Notes under the pieces: model-generated
The model's input: only the letters and a program-made list of their open reading frames with translations
Database searches by the model: none
What the model was told of the DNA's origin: nothing
Assembly (NCBI GenBank): GCA_029243225.1
Contig: JAQWSL010000038.1
Coordinates: 1-33,519 of the forward strand
DNA: 33,519 nucleotides
Reading direction: 5' to 3'
Origin: Flavobacteriales bacterium
GTDB lineage: Bacteria; Bacteroidota; Bacteroidia; Flavobacteriales_D; Parvicellaceae
Shown here: one piece after another, positions 10,606-30,618 of the stretch
Layout of the letters: every line of letters begins with the position of its first letter
Position numbering within the stretch: position 1 is the stretch's first letter
Made by a program: the position numbers and the translations under genes

Positions 10606-11580
10606 ATGGAAAATTCAGAGCAAGCAAAAAAAAGAAACTTGTTTTACATGTTGGTTATTTTTGCTTTACTAGTAATCGTTGGTTATTTAGCTATTCAAAT
10701 TAATTCTGCAAATAAAAAAAATCATGACTTTGGTCAAAAAATAAACTTACTAAACTCTGAAAAAAATGAGTTAAACTCAATATTAGAATCTTCAGGAATA
10801 ATAAATGAACAAGACAATAAAAACTTAAGAACCAATCTACAGAACTTACTTTCAACTTATGATACCTTAAAGTTTGATAATGAAAAAATTAAGGACAGCA
10901 TCGAAAATCAGAAATTGGTAATAAACAATCTAATGCTAGAAGCTGAACAACTAGAGAATCAGAAAAAGAAAGATTGGGGAAGAATTTACAAACTCAAAAA
11001 AGAAACTGAAACACTAAGATCTATTATGAAAGGATACATTCAAACCATTGATTCTCTTAACACTGAAAACATTAATTTGACCAACTCACTAAACAAAACA
11101 AATAAAGAGCTTTCTCAAGTTCAATCAGAAAACAAAAATATTAAAGATGAAAATCAAGAACTTCAACAGACTGTTGCCTTGGGTTCAATCTTACAAACGA
11201 CCAATTTCATAGCTCAAGCGATTAGAGTTAAAGGCAACGGCAAGCAAACAGAAACTTCTCGAGCAAGTCGAACGAACATGCTAAAAGGATGTTTCACCAT
11301 TCTAGAAAATAAAATTTCATCGGCAGGAAATAAATACATCTACTTAAGAGTATTGAATCCTAACGGTAAGGTTCTTTCTCAAAATAAAAAAGAAGTTATA
11401 TCATTAGAAAATTCTGAAGAAATTGAAATTAGTGCTAAAAGAGAAATTAATTACCAAAATGAAAACACAGATGTTTGTATTTACTATGAAGTTGAAAATG
11501 CTATAGCTCCTGGTAATTATGAAGTAGAAATTTATGCTGACAATAATAAAATCGGCATAACTTCTTTTGCTTTAAAATAG
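10606..11580 (+). CDS. Membrane-anchored coiled-coil protein
   Basis: The 324-residue protein has a short polar N-terminus, one transmembrane helix at about residues 12-31 (LFYMLVIFALLVIVGYLAI), then a long coiled coil from about 35 to 195 rich in Lys, Glu, Asn and Gln heptads. The C-terminal domain, about 195-324, looks beta-rich (GNKYIYLRVLNPNGKVLSQ, DVCIYYEVENAIAPGNYEVEIYADNN). The topology suggests a short cytoplasmic tail with coiled coil and beta domain in the periplasm. Similar Bacteroidota proteins are often mislabelled as chromosome-partition proteins because of the coiled coil, and I see no ATPase motif. It probably stands alone as a transcription unit. Function unknown. Confidence 0.78.
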   Translation: MENSEQAKKRNLFYMLVIFALLVIVGYLAIQINSANKKNHDFGQKINLLNSEKNELNSILESSGIINEQDNKNLRTNLQNLLSTYDTLKFDNEKIKDSIENQKLVINNLMLEAEQLENQKKKDWGRIYKLKKETETLRSIMKGYIQTIDSLNTENINLTNSLNKTNKELSQVQSENKNIKDENQELQQTVALGSILQTTNFIAQAIRVKGNGKQTETSRASRTNMLKGCFTILENKISSAGNKYIYLRVLNPNGKVLSQNKKEVISLENSEEIEISAKREINYQNENTDVCIYYEVENAIAPGNYEVEIYADNNKIGITSFALK

Positions 11581-11583
11581 TAG

Positions 11584-11694
11584 TTATAAAATGAAAATAA
11601 GCCCAATTAAAAATATTAGAACAATTAAAAGATATTGCCAAACATCTAAAAAATAAGGATAATAATTTTCCCAAAATTCTTTAAACTTTTTCAT
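11584..11694 (-). CDS. Possible 36-residue single-pass membrane protein
   Basis: The frame encodes MKKFKEFWENYYPYFLDVW followed by a hydrophobic helix QYLLIVLIFLIGLIFIL. It reads as a plausible tail-anchored miniprotein, with a basic and aromatic N-terminus and a 17-residue membrane helix at the end. It lies entirely between the coiled-coil gene (three bases from its stop) and the beta-barrel gene (17 bases before its ATG), so it would need a promoter inside or overlapping the neighbouring gene. The frame can be extended to 11769, but that would overlap the barrel gene's signal peptide. Unverified and possibly chance. Confidence 0.35.
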   Translation of the reverse strand: MKKFKEFWENYYPYFLDVWQYLLIVLIFLIGLIFIL

Positions 11695-11711
11695 ACTAAA
11701 AATAAAATTTA

Positions 11712-12500
11712 ATGTCAAAGCTATACAAATCAATTGGTTTAATTTGTTTTTTAATTCTATCACTCTCATTTACATCTCAAAACATTGGAGACACAATAAA
11801 TATTGAAATGGGAGGGTCTAAAGTTTTAATTATCAATAAAAATATTGAGCAGGGTTGGGATTTTGAAGATGAAGAAGCTGATCTAAAAAAACGATCTCTA
11901 GGATTTGAATTCATTTTGGGCAGCAATGGATGGGTTAATTGGCCTCTTTCAAAAATTGAAAATTCTTCAAGCTATTGTATAGATTATTTAAACTCAACTA
12001 AAGTAGGTGGTGCTTTTTTATTGAAAGGAATAAGTGTGAAAAATGAAAGATTGTATTTTTTACCAGGAATTGGGTTTAGTTGGGATAATTATGTTTTTAA
12101 AAACAATGTGATGGTAGAATCTATAAACGGAAACACATCCTTTACTATAGACACACTAAATACTATTAATAAATCTAAATTACGTACAACCTATTTACAA
12201 GTTCCTTTATTGTTAGGTTTCCGATTAGGGAACATTAATAAAAACCCCTTTGGTATTCAAATTGGAATTGAAGGGGCGTATCAGTTGCAAGCAAAAACAA
12301 CTGTTAAAAGCGAAAATGGCAATACTCAAATTAACAGAACAAAAGATAATTTCAGTTTAAATCCTTATAAATTATCGGCTTTATTGCGTTTAAGCATTGG
12401 TAATTTTGGATTGTTTGGAAGCTTTTCATTAATACCCATTACTTCAAACAACTTAGACTATTTTCCAATAAGTGCTGGAATAATAATTGCTAGTTTTTAA
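11712..12500 (+). CDS. Outer-membrane beta-barrel protein (PorT-like)
   Basis: This 262-residue protein has an N-terminal signal peptide (about 1-22, ...LSLSFTSQ), a short beta segment (INIEMGGSKVLIINKN), and then alternating beta strands typical of small outer-membrane barrels in Bacteroidota: GFEFILGSNGWVNWPL, AFLLKGISVKNERLYFLPGIGFSWDNYVF, LRTTYLQVPLLLGFRLG, PFGIQIGIEGAYQLQAKT and YKLSALLRLSIGNFGLFGSFSLIP. The last residue is Phe (IIIASF), as expected for recognition by the BAM machinery. The cargo or substrate is unknown. It precedes the DUF4837 lipoprotein gene by 16 bases and is probably co-transcribed with it. Confidence 0.82.
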   Translation: MSKLYKSIGLICFLILSLSFTSQNIGDTINIEMGGSKVLIINKNIEQGWDFEDEEADLKKRSLGFEFILGSNGWVNWPLSKIENSSSYCIDYLNSTKVGGAFLLKGISVKNERLYFLPGIGFSWDNYVFKNNVMVESINGNTSFTIDTLNTINKSKLRTTYLQVPLLLGFRLGNINKNPFGIQIGIEGAYQLQAKTTVKSENGNTQINRTKDNFSLNPYKLSALLRLSIGNFGLFGSFSLIPITSNNLDYFPISAGIIIASF

Positions 12501-12516
12501 TTAAAATCGATTACAC

Positions 12517-13545
12517 ATGTTTAAACATTCCTTTATAATTGCTATTGCCTTTCTTTGTTTAGGATGCAGTGGTGATGACTTTAATCAAGACATTCTCAAG
12601 CCTGAATCAAAAAAAAATATGGGGGAATTACTAGTTGTTTTGGACAAAAAATACTGGGAGAATTCTAACATAGCATTTGCAATTAAAAATAATTTCGGAC
12701 AGCTTGTTACCTCTACACCGTTACCATATGAACCAGAATTTAATGTTGAATTTGTTGATCAAGGAGGTGTAAATAAAATAATCAAAAGACATAAAACTAT
12801 TTTAATAGTAAATATAAATCCATCGTCAAATATTAATTCGAAAGAAATACCTACACCAATTTTTGATTTATGGGCTAAAAATCAAATTGTTTACAAAATC
12901 AATGCCTCTTCAGAAAAAAATGCTATTACAATTATTAACCACCATGCCGATTCAATTAAGCTTGGTATAAATCAGTTTTACTACTCATCAATTTTATCTT
13001 TTGCAGGAGAAAATAAAAAAGCCAATGCCGTTTTAAAGGAAAATCATTCTATCGAATTGAAACTTCCAAGCAACATGCTAATTAAAAAATCTGCTTCTAA
13101 TTTTACTTGGCTAAGCAGAACAAAAATAAAAAAGGACAACAATGGCGATCACGAAATTCAGCAAGGTGTTTTGGTTTATAGTTACCCTTACGTAAATGAA
13201 AATATTTTCTCTTTAGAACACCAAATTAAACTAAGGGATTCTTTACTTAAAAAGCATGTGCACGGTACTGTTGAAAATTAATACATGACAACAAGAAAAG
13301 ATGAGCTTGCAAATAATCAATCACAAGCTCAATTAATTAACAATAAATATGTCTTTACAATAAGAGGGTTGTGGAGAGTTGAAAATGACAAGATGGGAGG
13401 GCCGTTTATTAGTGTCTCTACTCTATCAAAGGATCAAGAAAGAGTAATAACAATAGAAGGATATGTTTATGCTCCAAATTTTAAAAAAAGAGAGCTACTT
13501 AAGGAGCTAGAAGCGGTAATTCACTCTTTCGAACTTACTAATTAA
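12517..13545 (+). pseudogene. DUF4837 lipoprotein gene interrupted by an in-frame TAA
   Basis: Two same-frame segments together make one DUF4837 protein of about 342 codons. The first, 12517-13281 (254 residues), has a lipobox (IAIAFLCLGC, Cys17), then the family opening GELLVVLDKKYWEN. The second, 13285-13545 (86 residues), holds the family's C-terminal block RGLWRVENDKMGGPFISVS and TIEGYVYAPNFKKRELLKELE. Between them the frame reads GAA AAT TAA TAC ATG: one stop (13279-13281), one Tyr codon, then ATG. A single C-to-A change from TCA would explain it. Both halves otherwise look intact with no drift. Possible readings are a recent nonsense mutation, a sequencing error, readthrough, or reinitiation giving two chains. 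It follows the barrel gene by 16 bases. The function of the family is unknown. Confidence 0.8.
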
Positions 13546-14162
13546 GATGAGAAATAAATATTTCTTTGAAATGCATTTTCTTTTATTTTAGCTTCAAACG
13601 ATTGCTTATCTTTTTCATTAATTAAATCTAAATCAATCAATCTAACTTTTTTGTTTTTTAACTTGAATTGAAGATCGTTATGCCTTAAAGTAATAGTAAC
13701 AATATCGTTCCATGAAATAACCAAAAGCGCATGATTAACTAAAGTAATAGCATTATCTGTTATAACAATTTTGTAATTATTTTTCCCAATTAATAAATGA
13801 AACAAGCTTTCGATTACATACAAAAGTAAAACTACCTTAAAAAGAAACCCTACCTCAATGTAAAGAACCATAAATAAAACTATTAATAAATTAAAAACCC
13901 ATAAAACTGCTTCATAAGTGAAGCTTTTTATCCACCCTTTTTTACTTAATAAAAGCCCTGTTGTTGTTTTAATTCTAAATACAGCTAACCACCTTATCAA
14001 TCCTCTAATAATTAAAATAAACAATAAAAATACTGCAACTACATCTAACCATTTAGAAACTTGATATAGGGTGAAATCTATGTGGTAATTGAAAGATAAG
14101 AAACATAAAATACTGGTCCCTATGCTTGTAAATAATGCTATTCTAGAGTATGCTGTTATCAT
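13542..14162 (-). CDS. Membrane protein with C-terminal PH-like domain
   Basis: This is a 206-residue protein. Hydrophobic segments occupy roughly residues 5-22, 35-55 and 85-125. The last 70 residues (YKIVITDNAITLVNHALLVISWNDIVTITLRHNDLQFKLKNKKVRLIDLDL) look like the bacterial PH-like domain of the YcxB type, in which a short helix follows strands containing 'I.W..I..I....'. I start at ATG 14162, seven bases after the stop of the upstream transglycosylase gene. A start at 14219 would overlap that gene by 50 bases and add a poorly fitting N-terminus. It is probably the last gene of the long minus-strand run. Its stop shares TTAA with the convergent DUF4837 gene. Function unknown. Confidence 0.72.
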   Translation of the reverse strand: MITAYSRIALFTSIGTSILCFLSFNYHIDFTLYQVSKWLDVVAVFLLFILIIRGLIRWLAVFRIKTTTGLLLSKKGWIKSFTYEAVLWVFNLLIVLFMVLYIEVGFLFKVVLLLYVIESLFHLLIGKNNYKIVITDNAITLVNHALLVISWNDIVTITLRHNDLQFKLKNKKVRLIDLDLINEKDKQSFEAKIKENAFQRNIYFSS

Positions 14163-14169
14163 TGATAAA

Positions 14170-15111
14170 CTAAAAGGGTTGACATTCAAAAATAAAATCG
14201 CAATGATCATATATTTCATCTTGAAGGCTTAGTAAAGCTGCTATGGCTACTTGTGTGTAATTTTGTGAAGCATTTTTAAATCCGCCCCATTCATTTTGCC
14301 AAATCCAAAGAATAAGTTTTTTCCCGGACAATGGTGATTCTTGCTGCTTAAGCAAACCCTCAACATTACCAGCTCCAGCATGGTATATATGAAGCACTAA
14401 AAGTTTAAACCACAAATCATTTTCTGAATAACTAACATCTAGGCTACCTAAGATTCTTCGTGCTTCCACAATACATACAGAAGATAATAAGGATGCGGCC
14501 GCTTTTGCTGATTTATCAAAATCCTTTCTCTCATCTATTGTTTTATTTACAGTTAGCCCATGAGCTTTCGCAACAGATTTCATTAATTGAAAGGGGCCGA
14601 AAGCTCCTACGTTAGAATACTCTAGCTTCTTAGGACTTTCGATTAACAATATTGCTTGAGCATACCAAGGATCAACATTATTATCATCAAAAATATTAAC
14701 TGCCTTACTTATGCTAGGCATTGTTTTATTTACCAAATAAAAATCTCGCTTTCCAGATGTAACATAAATCTTATTATCGTCTTCTAAACAATGCAATAGA
14801 CGCAAAGAGTCTTTGTATTTTAATTTTTGTTCTGCCGTTTGGTTTGTCCACAACTCAGTATTTTCAAAACATAAAATTTCTCTTGATGAAGCAATGTTAA
14901 TGATACATGTATCAGGACCCAACTTCATTATTTTCTTCCAAAATAATGGTTGCGCTAACGTATCCCACCTTTCGGAAAACAAATCATCAACATCTACAAT
15001 TGTATAAGAGCTTGAGTCTCTATCTGAACAAATATCAAGCAATTGTGATTGTTGCCCAAGGCAAAAGACACAAGTAAAAAAAAGGCATATGACAACACAA
15101 AATCTAAACAT
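14170..15111 (-). CDS. Exported lytic transglycosylase-domain protein (SLT/family 23-like)
   Basis: This 313-residue protein has a signal peptide (MFRFCVVICLFFTCVFCLG). The C-terminal half carries the SLT fold signatures: the catalytic-type Glu158 in AILLIESPKK, then GAFGPFQLM at 169-177 (usual G-x-x-G-x-x-Q-x-M), and HIYHAGAGNVEGLL, equivalent to the usual AYNAGxG, with Asn replaced by His. It should cleave the glycan strands of peptidoglycan in the periplasm. The N-terminal 140 residues show no domain I recognise. The gene sits directly downstream of PBP1A and the aminotransferase in the same run, so synthesis and cleavage of the cell wall are encoded together. The unusual N-to-H change leaves activity uncertain. 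Confidence 0.78.
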   Translation of the reverse strand: MFRFCVVICLFFTCVFCLGQQSQLLDICSDRDSSSYTIVDVDDLFSERWDTLAQPLFWKKIMKLGPDTCIINIASSREILCFENTELWTNQTAEQKLKYKDSLRLLHCLEDDNKIYVTSGKRDFYLVNKTMPSISKAVNIFDDNNVDPWYAQAILLIESPKKLEYSNVGAFGPFQLMKSVAKAHGLTVNKTIDERKDFDKSAKAAASLLSSVCIVEARRILGSLDVSYSENDLWFKLLVLHIYHAGAGNVEGLLKQQESPLSGKKLILWIWQNEWGGFKNASQNYTQVAIAALLSLQDEIYDHCDFIFECQPF

Positions 15112-26138: not shown

Positions 26139-26212
26139 GGCCTCGTGGCGCAACTGAATAGCGCACTGGATTTCGGCTCCAGCGGTTGCAGGTTTGAATC
26201 CTGCCGGGGTCA
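26139..26212 (+). tRNA. tRNA-Arg (anticodon TCG)
   Basis: The cloverleaf can be drawn in full. The acceptor GGCCTCG (26139-26145) pairs with CGGGGTC (26205-26211), with two wobble pairs, and discriminator A is at 26212. The D-arm pairs GCGC with GCGC. The anticodon stem is CTGGA/TCCAG with loop TTTCGGC, giving anticodon TCG, and the T-arm is GCAGG/CCTGC with loop TTTGAAT. The length is 74 bases and CCA is not encoded, as in most Bacteroidota. It reads CGN arginine codons. A rho-independent terminator follows 11 bases later. Confidence 0.95.
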
Positions 26213-26223
26213 CACTAGTTTGA

Positions 26224-26250
26224 AGCTCAGCATTTAGCTGGGCTTTTTTT
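26224..26250 (+). terminator. Terminator after tRNA-Arg
   Basis: AGCTCAGC (26224-26231) pairs with GCTGGGCT (26237-26244), with one G-T pair, around loop ATTTA. T residues run from 26244 to 26250. It ends the tRNA transcript. Confidence 0.85.
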
Positions 26251-26273
26251 AGTTTCAATTTTATTTCATCCCT

Positions 26274-26305
26274 AAAACATTGGGTTTCGTCCCAGCAAAT
26301 GTTTT
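26274..26305 (+). other. Imperfect hairpin between the tRNA terminator and the protease gene
   Basis: AAAACAT (26274-26280) pairs with ATGTTTT (26299-26305), and inside that TGGG (26281-26284) pairs with CCCA (26291-26294) around loop TTTCGT. Four bases (GCAA, 26295-26298) are bulged on the right side. It has no T tract, so it is not a standard terminator. It lies about 110 bases before the protease ATG and could be part of its leader or an operator. Confidence 0.35.
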
Positions 26306-26413
26306 AAGAATGTCATTTAATCACTAAAATAGCTGCTTTCAAAACATTACCAACCTTAAGCTTTTATATCGCTATTAGTCTTATGATTTTTGTTCAAATT
26401 AAAAATTTAAACC

Positions 26414-28384
26414 ATGAAAAAAATGACAAGACTACCAAAAAAAATTAAAGCCTTATTATTAGGTTTTATATTACTTACATCCTCTACTTATAGTGCTCAA
26501 ACAGGAACTGTTTGGGGAAGTGTTAAAAATTTATCTGCATTAGGTAAATCCACTGCTTATTTAACTGCTGTAAAGAAATTAAACATTAAGTATAAGCAGG
26601 CCTTACCCAGTTCAAAAACACCTCATTTATTAAATGTATATGAATTCAGTTGTAATTGTAATGAAGCAGATCTTTATACTGCTTTAAATAATGTTTCTGT
26701 AATAAGCGGCATAGAGTATGGTCCAAAATATGAGCCATTAGTATTACCGGATGACTACACTATGAATTTTGATCCAATGTGGTCCTTAGACTTAATAAAC
26801 GCAGAAGGTGCATGGAATTATACCCATGGAGACCCTAGCATAAACGTAGCTGTTTCTGATCAAAACCTTTGGCCAAATCATGAAGAGTTAATTGGTGCGT
26901 TAAATTATTACGATGCATCAAATACTGCATCACAAGGTCACGGCACTGCCGTTACTTGCTTAGTTGCAGGAAACACCCATAATTCTATTGGAATGAGCTC
27001 TATTGGGTGGGATCTAACTGTTAATTTTTACAGGATGAATTACAACGAAGTATTAGCTGCTTCAAATGCTGGAGCAAGAGTAATTAATCTAAGCTGGACT
27101 TCTGGATGTCAATTCAATCAATACCAACAAGATGCAATTAACGAGGTATATAACAACGGTACTTTTATTGTTGCTGCAGCAGGGAATGGACCAACTTGTA
27201 ATGGCCCCAACACTTTAGTTTATCCTGCTTCATATGACAATGTATTTTCAGTAACTAGTATTGGGAAAAACGACAATCACGAAAGAATAATTGGAGATCC
27301 TAATAGTACTCACCAGCATAATATTGCTGTTGATTTAAGTGCTCCAGGTTATGATGTTCCAATAACTGCTGCGCCAAATTGGTATTTAGATGGAAGTGGT
27401 ACATCTTATGCATCTCCAATAGTTGTTGGAACCGTTGGATTAATGCTTTCTGTTAATCCTTGCTTATCAAATTGGGAAATAGAGACTTACCTAAAACAAT
27501 CTTCAGTTAATATAGACGCCATAAATCCAAATTATGCTGGATTAATTGGTGCGGGAAGATTAAATGCAGAAGGCGCTGTGGCCTTAGCCGCAAATAGTAT
27601 CTCTAATACAGCTCCATGCGGTGACCCTTTTGAGGGTTGTGAAAACTCTGATCTCTCTGTATGGGCAGGATTATGTCAAACAACATTTTGGGGTTATACA
27701 GATGATTATGCAGAAGTTAATTTAAATGGAATATCATCAGGTGGTTATGGAAATATTTCTAGTGTTTGGACAGATCAGGATGGCAATGTTGTAGGAACAG
27801 GGAGCGCTACATCTTTTCTCACAAATGCATCTACAGTAGGTATGGGTGATTACATTACATCAACGTATACATTAACTAACACAGATGAATTTGGCTGCTC
27901 TGTTAGTGATGATGTTGAAGTTACAACCTACAATATAATCTGTTCTAAGCCTAACGCCAACATGAATTTCATTCCTAGTACAAACAACAGAAAGATTATG
28001 GTTTGTTCTAAAGGCGGCTTTAGATGTGTTCCATATAATGCTGTGGCAAATGTTTTAGCTGCGTGCCAAAATTGCAAATTAGGTCCTTGCGATGCAATTC
28101 CTAATTGTAAGGGATTTGCTGGGAAATCTTCAACTGAAATTTCATTTGACAAACCAGCAATTAAGGTTTTCCCCAACCCTTCTAATGGGATAATAAATGT
28201 TGTTAGTGAAGACATGGAAATAATAAATAAAATAGAAATTTATAACCACATGGGGCAGCTTATTCTAACTAAGCACAATGAATATAATTTTGAAATTGAC
28301 TTAACAAGTCAAAGCACTGGCATCTATTATGTAAAAGCATATATGGGTGATCAGGTATTATCTTCAGTGGTGTCTTATTTTTAA
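26414..28384 (+). CDS. Secreted S8 (subtilisin-like) serine protease with T9SS sorting domain
   Basis: This is a 656-residue protein. The signal peptide spans about 1-28 (ALLLGFILLTSSTYSAQ), followed by a short prodomain to about 115. The peptidase S8 domain is about 125-395 and has a complete catalytic set: Asp149 in VAVSDQNLWPNHEEL, His176 in GHGTAV, oxyanion Asn258 in AAAGNG, and Ser331 in GTSYASP. Beyond residue 400 there is an Ig-like beta region (about 410-510), then a Cys-rich module at about 526-565, and a type A sorting domain at about 581-656 (VFPNPSNGIINV...STGIYYVKAYMGDQVLSSVVSYF). It should be exported by Sec, moved across the outer membrane by the T9SS, and act outside the cell. 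It stands alone between two terminators. Confidence 0.9.
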   Translation: MKKMTRLPKKIKALLLGFILLTSSTYSAQTGTVWGSVKNLSALGKSTAYLTAVKKLNIKYKQALPSSKTPHLLNVYEFSCNCNEADLYTALNNVSVISGIEYGPKYEPLVLPDDYTMNFDPMWSLDLINAEGAWNYTHGDPSINVAVSDQNLWPNHEELIGALNYYDASNTASQGHGTAVTCLVAGNTHNSIGMSSIGWDLTVNFYRMNYNEVLAASNAGARVINLSWTSGCQFNQYQQDAINEVYNNGTFIVAAAGNGPTCNGPNTLVYPASYDNVFSVTSIGKNDNHERIIGDPNSTHQHNIAVDLSAPGYDVPITAAPNWYLDGSGTSYASPIVVGTVGLMLSVNPCLSNWEIETYLKQSSVNIDAINPNYAGLIGAGRLNAEGAVALAANSISNTAPCGDPFEGCENSDLSVWAGLCQTTFWGYTDDYAEVNLNGISSGGYGNISSVWTDQDGNVVGTGSATSFLTNASTVGMGDYITSTYTLTNTDEFGCSVSDDVEVTTYNIICSKPNANMNFIPSTNNRKIMVCSKGGFRCVPYNAVANVLAACQNCKLGPCDAIPNCKGFAGKSSTEISFDKPAIKVFPNPSNGIINVVSEDMEIINKIEIYNHMGQLILTKHNEYNFEIDLTSQSTGIYYVKAYMGDQVLSSVVSYF

Positions 28385-28414
28385 TATGGTTTAAATATAA
28401 AATTCATCCTGATT

Positions 28415-28441
28415 AAAAGCCCGGCAATAGCTGGGCTTTTT
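28415..28441 (+). terminator. Terminator after the S8 protease gene
   Basis: AAAAGCCCGGC (28415-28425) pairs with GCTGGGCTTTT (28430-28440), with one G-T pair, around the loop AATA. A short T run follows. The A-rich left side means it could also act weakly for the convergent DinB gene. Confidence 0.85.
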
Positions 28442-28497
28442 AGATAAGAAAAAATCGGTTAGCTATTGTATGTCAAACTTAGATTTTAGCCATAAGA

Positions 28498-28980
28498 TTA
28501 CTTAGTATCGGCACTGTAACCATAAACAGCTGGATTTTTACCACCCATTGGTCTAATGTATGAAGATAATTGACCCCGATGATGAATAATGTCGTTGTGA
28601 TAAAACCACATCATGTGCATTCTTGGTAATGTTATAAAAGATTTTCCATGAACAAGTAGTTCAACCAAATCTTCTTCCCAATGTTGATCTGTTAAATTTG
28701 CCAAGGATTTTTGTGCTTTTTCCCAGTGAATCTTCATTTCATCGGCTAAACTTAGCGGAGAATCAAAAGGGTATTCAAGTTTTTCATCAACTTGATTGTT
28801 ATTAATGACAATGTCTAAGTCAAAAACATGACCAACAATGTGTTCAGCTATTTCATAAGCTGACCTATTAATAGGATGGGGTTTGTAATCAAGTTTATCT
28901 ACTGGAATTGCAGCAATCATTTCATATGTTGCTTTTAATTCGTTTTTAAAATAGGCTTTAAAAAATTCAAGGTTTGTCAT
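28498..28980 (-). CDS. DinB-family four-helix metal-binding protein
   Basis: The 160-residue cytoplasmic protein has the DinB/YfiT four-helix layout. The first helix is NLEFFKAYFKNELKATYEMIAAIP, His47 and His51 lie in YEIAEHIVGHVFDLD, and the late motif MWFYHNDIIHHRGQLSSYIRPMGGKNPAVYG supplies His128, His133 and His134. The family binds a divalent metal through a three-His site. Some members are thiol-dependent transferases or hydrolases and many are uncharacterised. The 'HHRGQ...lR..G...P..YG' ending is typical. It is convergent with the S8 protease and divergent from the lipoprotein gene at 29111, with 130 bases between in which I see no clear promoter. Confidence 0.88.
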   Translation of the reverse strand: MTNLEFFKAYFKNELKATYEMIAAIPVDKLDYKPHPINRSAYEIAEHIVGHVFDLDIVINNNQVDEKLEYPFDSPLSLADEMKIHWEKAQKSLANLTDQHWEEDLVELLVHGKSFITLPRMHMMWFYHNDIIHHRGQLSSYIRPMGGKNPAVYGYSADTK

Positions 28981-29110
28981 GATAGAAGTGATTTGTAATT
29001 GGAATTAAACGTTCGATTTATTATTAATTAAAATACAAAAAAAATTAAATCTCCCATAATAAATAAAATATGAAGCTAAAGGAATACTAATTTTATCGTA
29101 TTTTTTTCAA

Positions 29111-29893
29111 ATGAAAAAATTCAAGCGCTTTTTATTTCTAAGCCTTTGGTTAATAATTATTAATTCTTGTTCAACAACTAATGACGTTGTACAAAACAAC
29201 AGGATTAATAAAAGAAAATATACAAAAGGGTTAAATATTTATAAAAAAAATAAGAATAACTTTCTCGATCTAAAGGGAAAAAACAATGACCAAAATTTAA
29301 ATGTGGTTTCAAAAAAAAAATCAATTGTGATTAATGAATTTAATAATTCAAAAAACATAGATTCCTTGTTGGCTTACAATGATATTGTAATTGAAAGTGA
29401 AGAAGTTGAAAACAAAGATCCAAAGTCTTTGTCGCTGAGTAGTAATAAAGTCAACACAATTAAAAAAAATAGTAATAATATAATTACCCCAATTGTTAAC
29501 TCTAAAGAAAAGAAAAGCATTGTTAAGAAACACAGACAAAACCATGTGCTTAATATATTACTTACCAAGCTTAATGATGACGATAAGGGGGTGTACATAT
29601 TAAAATTAATTGGAATTTCTCTTCTTTTTGCAATTACAGGTTTAGATATCTTTTTAGCTGTATTCTCAATTGCTTTTGATGGGTTGTATGGAGCATCTTT
29701 GTTATTCTTGTTTTCAGCATTAATTTTAACTCTTATTTCAGTATCAATATTAAAAAAATTTAAAGAGAACTATCCTAAAAAAGAATCAGATGAAAAGGAA
29801 AATAGTAATGGAATGATTTTTTTAAAAACACTTGGTATAATAGCAGGCACATTCATTTTAACTGCGATTCTATTTTTTAATATAATTTTATGA
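29111..29893 (+). CDS. Lipoprotein with KRKYTKG motif and C-terminal membrane helices
   Basis: This 260-residue protein has a lipobox ending at Cys20 (SLWLIIINSC) followed by NDVVQNNRINKRKYTKGLN at about 24-42. That is a motif I know from many Bacteroidota lipoproteins ('...KR+Y.KG...'), function unknown. A low-complexity polar stretch (Asn, Lys, Ser) covers about 43-145. Then come three to four membrane helices between about 160 and 260 (LIGISLLFAITGLDIFLAVF, YGASLLFLFSALILTLISVSIL, LGIIAGTFILTAILFFNIIL). A lipid anchor together with several transmembrane helices suggests inner-membrane location. No partner gene is obvious. About 209 bases follow with no gene I would defend. Confidence 0.75.
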   Translation: MKKFKRFLFLSLWLIIINSCSTTNDVVQNNRINKRKYTKGLNIYKKNKNNFLDLKGKNNDQNLNVVSKKKSIVINEFNNSKNIDSLLAYNDIVIESEEVENKDPKSLSLSSNKVNTIKKNSNNIITPIVNSKEKKSIVKKHRQNHVLNILLTKLNDDDKGVYILKLIGISLLFAITGLDIFLAVFSIAFDGLYGASLLFLFSALILTLISVSILKKFKENYPKKESDEKENSNGMIFLKTLGIIAGTFILTAILFFNIIL

Positions 29894-30102
29894 TACTTAG
29901 TCTTAAGAAAAAGTGAAACCACTATAGTATCGTTAATGAAGCGTTTTAGTGCCAAAACAAATACAGTCTCTGAATTTTACAACACCGTTACTATTTATAA
30001 AGAAATTTCTCAAATTGTAAAATCACTTTATGTAAAATAATTCTACCCTAAATTCATGTGTAATCAACATTTAGTTTGATAAATTAGTCAAAAAAAAAAT
30101 TC

Positions 30103-30618
30103 ATGTTCATTCGTTTAGCATCTAGCCAAGATGAAAAAACAATTATTGCGCTTGCTAATCAAGTCTATTATACATCTGAAAAAGACTTTTGGAAAGATGG
30201 ATATTATAGACTTGACAAACAAGAATTTGATTTACACCTATCAAAAAACCAACTGTTTGTTGGAGAGCTAAAGAATGAAATAGTTGGGTGTGTCTTGATG
30301 AAGCAAGTAAACAAAATAACAGCATCTTTTTCAATGCTAATTTGCCACCCCAATCATAGAAAAAAAGGAATTGGAAAAACTCTAGTTAATCATGTGTTTT
30401 CTGAAGCTAAAAAAAAGAATTACAAAAAAATGCAACTGGAAATATTATCGCCTTTAGAATGGGTTCATCAGGAGAAAGAATTTCTTAAAACCTGGTATAA
30501 ATCTATTGGCTTTAAATTAATTAAAGAAGTTGATTTTCTTGATTATTATCCTACTCACGATAAATACATGAAATGTCCTCTAATTTTCTCCCTTTATGAA
30601 AAAGATTTAGTTGCTTAA
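30103..30618 (+). CDS. GNAT-family N-acetyltransferase
   Basis: The 171-residue cytoplasmic protein starts MFIRLASSQDEKTIIALANQVYY, as GNAT enzymes do. It carries strands QLFVGELKNEIVGCVLMK and ASFSMLICHPNHRKKGIGKTLVNHVFSEAKKKN, where the R-K-K-G-I-G-K loop (motif A) binds the pyrophosphate of acetyl-CoA. The motif B end is represented by LKTWYKSIGFKLIKEVDFLDYYP. It transfers an acetyl group to an amine of an unknown substrate. It lies alone in a plus-strand group, 209 bases after the lipoprotein gene and 70 bases before yebC. Confidence 0.88.
   Translation: MFIRLASSQDEKTIIALANQVYYTSEKDFWKDGYYRLDKQEFDLHLSKNQLFVGELKNEIVGCVLMKQVNKITASFSMLICHPNHRKKGIGKTLVNHVFSEAKKKNYKKMQLEILSPLEWVHQEKEFLKTWYKSIGFKLIKEVDFLDYYPTHDKYMKCPLIFSLYEKDLVA

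Follow-up and report, generated by a model that had tools for sequence, protein, structure and literature searches.

The window, the whole stretch of 33,519 nucleotides of a Flavobacteriales bacterium that was analyzed, carries at 12517-13545 a DUF4837 (PF16125) lipoprotein gene interrupted by one in-frame TAA. Translation of this region gives 254 residues, the TAA at 13279-13281, a TAC codon and an ATG at 13285, from which a chain of 86 residues (Met counted) runs to the natural stop, TAA 13543-13545. The features of the gene are as follows.

12517..13545, forward strand: whole ancestral DUF4837 (PF16125) lipoprotein gene (PF16125 score of 220.8 bits with one TAA inside; aligned with 33 homologues)
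12517..12567, forward strand: lipoprotein signal peptide and lipobox ending at Cys17 (LCLGC in the sequence; Cys17 invariant in 34 sequences)
12517..13278, forward strand: translated N-terminal part, 254 aa (PF16125 positions 3-213, E 1.7e-34)
13279..13281, forward strand: in-frame TAA stop (a sense codon, mostly Ser, in 40/40 aligned homologues)
13285..13287, forward strand: restart-like ATG, the conserved, nearly invariant Met257 of the [ST][YF]M motif in the homologue alignment
13282..13545, forward strand: C-terminal 87 aa that the truncation removes, the second half of a predicted PsbP/Mog1-like domain, with 7 of the 10 family-invariant residues

The initial annotation had claimed that the residues before and after the TAA lie in one frame and together make up a single DUF4837 protein, and this is borne out by the profile. 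The two parts match consecutive stretches of PF16125, positions 3-213 and then 226-295 (E 1e-23 for the latter), with 119.7 and 84.3 bits when scored separately and 220.8 bits when the frame is read through, all above the curated membership cut-off of 25 bits. The lipoprotein signal is likewise in place, ending at the invariant Cys17. The C-terminal invariant block, however, is not in the same chain here, as the TAA separates it from the rest. The stop is not a chance pattern, since relatives can be aligned to both of its flanks codon by codon. The gene at 12517-13545 is a DUF4837 gene by descent, and its present product is incomplete. No second DUF4837 copy, intact or otherwise, was found elsewhere in the source genome, a 2.2 Mb draft of 112 contigs that is 86.5% complete.

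Across 10606-15111, the coiled-coil gene upstream of DUF4837 is kept in 24 of the loci of relatives, and in the closer genera genes for an outer-membrane barrel and for an SLT transglycosylase also lie nearby, a neighborhood that hints at a role in the envelope. The family can nonetheless be lost: a DUF4837 match is absent from five of 60 relatives, two of which are listed as 100% complete, so that it appears to be dispensable in some lineages. No DUF4837 relatives were found in viral contigs.

Two congeners were compared with the window, both of them drafts: G001 (CALSPA010000006.1, uncultured Flavobacteriales), which has 90.8% DNA identity to the window over 26 kb, and G002 (PAZE01000045.1, Crocinitomicaceae). 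The comparison also brought up features at some distance from the DUF4837 gene. For an acetyltransferase-like gene at 30103-30618, named by eye from its sequence, the window and G001 differ by a dS of 0.063, where the other genes give 0.19-0.68; the two species may have exchanged it recently. At 26139-26212 is a tRNA-Arg (tcg) gene, inside a stretch of 77 bases that is identical in G002. The genes that follow it, one for a subtilase bearing a secretion-tail domain and a pair of small ones, have no counterpart in the compared G002 stretch and a partial one only in that of G001; 26139-30000 may be a variable spot adjoining the tRNA. A codon-score scan of 340 kb for other split genes returned, as judged by eye, only ordinary neighbor pairs or antisense frames; the scan missed DUF4837 itself and is thus of low sensitivity. 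Reassignment of the stop codon is ruled out, as TAA terminates 23 of the 30 genes in the window.

The initial annotation had proposed comparing the interrupted codon in close relatives and aligning the gene to its family. At this site both congeners have Ser, one base away from the TAA of the window, and the stop is common to no relative: all 40 aligned homologues have a sense codon, encoding Ser in 28, Thr in eight, Gln in two, Pro in one and Ala in one, the single Ala coming from a poorly aligned row (L031). After the site the homologues have Tyr or Phe and then a nearly invariant Met. By this alignment, the ATG at 13285 is the old internal Met257 of the [ST]-[YF]-M motif rather than a new start, and it resembles a restart only because the family conserves a Met at that position. 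Thus, of the suggestion that an ATG one codon past the stop would allow reinitiation, the presence of the ATG stands, but its place in the family argues against a start that arose for that purpose.

Between the window and G001, the DUF4837 gene has a dN of 0.040 and a dS of 0.577, giving a dN/dS of 0.069; with 24 other genes spanning 0.025-0.308, this is toward the strict end. Split at the stop, the gene gives ratios of 0.074 for the part ahead of it and 0.053 for the part past it. When G002 serves as the outgroup, the window branch receives five amino-acid changes ahead of the stop and none past it; two past the stop are unassignable to a branch. The part past the stop is also the more conserved in the family, as the commonest residue at a position has a mean share of 0.59 there (residues 256-338) against 0.42 in the part ahead of it (residues 33-254), and it holds G284, G294, G295, P296, A319, P320 and K324, seven of the ten residues that are invariant in the family. 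The initial annotation saw neither frameshift nor drift around the stop, and the codon-by-codon alignment of the flanks and the low ratio past the stop agree with that view. On these sequence comparisons, the gene was intact and constrained until very recently; the disruption is private to this lineage in a gene that is otherwise constrained, as in a young pseudogene.

An AlphaFold2 model with the stop read as Ser (mean pLDDT 91.7 and pTM 0.85 over the full chain) predicts a PsbP/Mog1-like domain at about residues 161-342 (12997-13542). Residues 161-341 match the cyanobacterial PsbP 2xb3 with a Z of 13.2 and an rmsd of 3.4 over 149 aligned residues, and match DcrB, Mog1 and LpqN with a Z of about 9-10, DcrB being at about 10 and LpqN at 9, with concordant results from Foldseek; on the read-through model, the structural match extends over the whole domain. 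The model suggests a likeness of fold only, with no function implied. The stop, at residue 255, is just ahead of a strand at 256-259, which is followed by four more strands and a helix, and it would halve the single predicted domain and remove its second half. Modeled alone, the N-terminal part (30-167) forms a confident alpha/beta domain (pLDDT 90.9) with no clear structural match, the best Z of 7.9 being within the range of common arrangements. Among PDB sequences, no DUF4837 match to a solved structure was found. As it lacks the best-conserved region, the 254-residue product is probably non-functional. As a by-product, the model offers a predicted PsbP/Mog1-like fold for the C-terminal half of DUF4837, a family on which we found no paper in the literature searched.

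The stop might not exist in the living cell. In a contig assembled from a metagenome, an error of base calling, polishing or strain mixing could have hidden a sense codon, and we regard this, the main rival reading, as unlikely, though worth serious thought: the stop is a singleton, the draft genome is fragmented (112 contigs, 86.5% complete), and the assembly of the nearest relative, G001, illustrates how error-rich such drafts can be. However, the other 29 genes of the window are open from start to stop, and in the ~78 kb aligned to G001 there is only one in-frame nonsense codon in a real gene opposite a sense codon, the other four stop hits being in antisense or non-coding frames, as judged by their position and pattern of differences. 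In the DUF4837 gene 130 of 343 codons are stop-prone, and about 1 in 20-25 random substitutions gives a stop; because stops are so rare among random substitutions, errors frequent enough to make one stop likely ought to be accompanied by many more. Low dN/dS around the stop and the position of the site outside any long homopolymer also speak against an error, and we infer that the TAA base is real. The G001 copy of the gene matches in pieces only, with several frame changes, which might suggest that DUF4837 is decaying across the genus; this was weighed apart, as it would overlap with a recent nonsense mutation, and is very improbable. Each of the five breaks in the G001 copy is an insertion of one base, in a cluster that extends from 12364 to 14360 (window coordinates) into the neighbor genes on both sides. 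A second such cluster is found at 243-822, 14 insertions or deletions of one base crowd into 3.4 kb of the stretch aligned to L071, and one-base insertion clusters run across several genes on the G001 contigs L033, L040, L089 and L090. When the insertion columns are left out, the codons of the G001 copy are as constrained as those of its neighbors, and the third member of the genus, G002, has an intact copy. From this pattern we take the G001 frame breaks to be assembly errors, which would carry no information on decay of the gene in the genus, and genus-wide decay was rejected; apparent frameshifts in that assembly are not trustworthy.

Other readings give the stop a function. Readthrough, one of the options raised in the initial annotation, would yield some full-length lipoprotein, and we consider it quite improbable. 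In-frame stops under purifying selection have been reported to be widespread in bacteria, and many were argued to be tolerated or read through (Belinky et al., 2021; PMC7918605); the sequence past the stop is conserved here as well (dN/dS 0.053). That study, however, accepted only stops common to at least two genomes, in order to exclude sequencing errors, whereas a stop is at this site in 0/40 homologues, and the measured constraint belongs to intact ancestors. Moreover, the leaky bacterial stop discussed in that work is TGA, while the stop here is TAA, the usual terminator in the window, and neither a TTA anticodon nor any suppressor tRNA was found among the 25 tRNA genes detected, an incomplete set from an incomplete genome. 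It is highly improbable that the TAA is real, fixed in the species and partly read through as a regulatory in-frame stop, which, if true, would lower the level of an envelope lipoprotein. A natural two-chain protein, with termination, reinitiation at ATG 13285 and an 86-residue chain that joins the first, borders on the negligible. The ATG one codon past the stop invites the idea, but it coincides with the nearly invariant internal Met of the family, the break would fall inside the PsbP/Mog1-like domain, and no relative is divided there. A natural split would be kept in relatives and would bring both chains to the same compartment; relatives encode a single DUF4837 chain, and the second chain here starts inside the mature domain. 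The first chain is predicted to be exported and the second, which is without signal peptide and lipobox, to stay in the cytosol, where it would not be expected to meet the first chain in the envelope. A working two-chain protein is implausible for this reason.

The TAA at 13279-13281 is thus probably a very recent nonsense mutation of an ordinary kind, the option of the initial annotation that is best supported by the sense codons of all relatives, a dN/dS of 0.07 and the lack of drift past the stop. A single-base change would have struck a DUF4837 lipoprotein gene that was intact, present in one copy and under strong constraint in this Flavobacteriales bacterium; translation would end after 254 residues, midway through the C-terminal PsbP/Mog1-like domain; and the outcome would be a newly formed pseudogene or a null allele at the level of the strain. 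Occasional private stops in DUF4837 do occur in these drafts, as the DUF4837 gene of another relative, G012 (L037), is interrupted by a single TAA of its own at codon 78, a position that encodes Lys, Thr or Asn in three congeners of G012. The locus provides a clean negative, as a stop followed immediately by an ATG mimics a designed restart, yet the ATG encodes an ancestral internal Met. The locus also illustrates that two broken copies in one genus may differ in cause, a point mutation in one and assembly errors in the other.

Set beside known systems, the gene shares with DUF4837 (PF16125) the lipobox Cys, a full-length profile match across the stop, the conserved [ST][YF]M, GLWR..N.KMGGPF and GYVYAPNF blocks, the same coiled-coil gene upstream and, in closer relatives, the same SLT transglycosylase gene downstream; it differs in the one in-frame TAA that truncates it at residue 255. 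Like the conserved in-frame stops of Belinky et al. (PMC7918605), this stop is in frame and has low dN/dS around it, but it is not found in two or more genomes, the entry criterion of that study. With singleton nonsense mutations and young pseudogenes it has in common one stop in a constrained gene, with no further decay and absent from relatives, and nothing notable differs. The event is of a kind already known, and we consider the finding ordinary.
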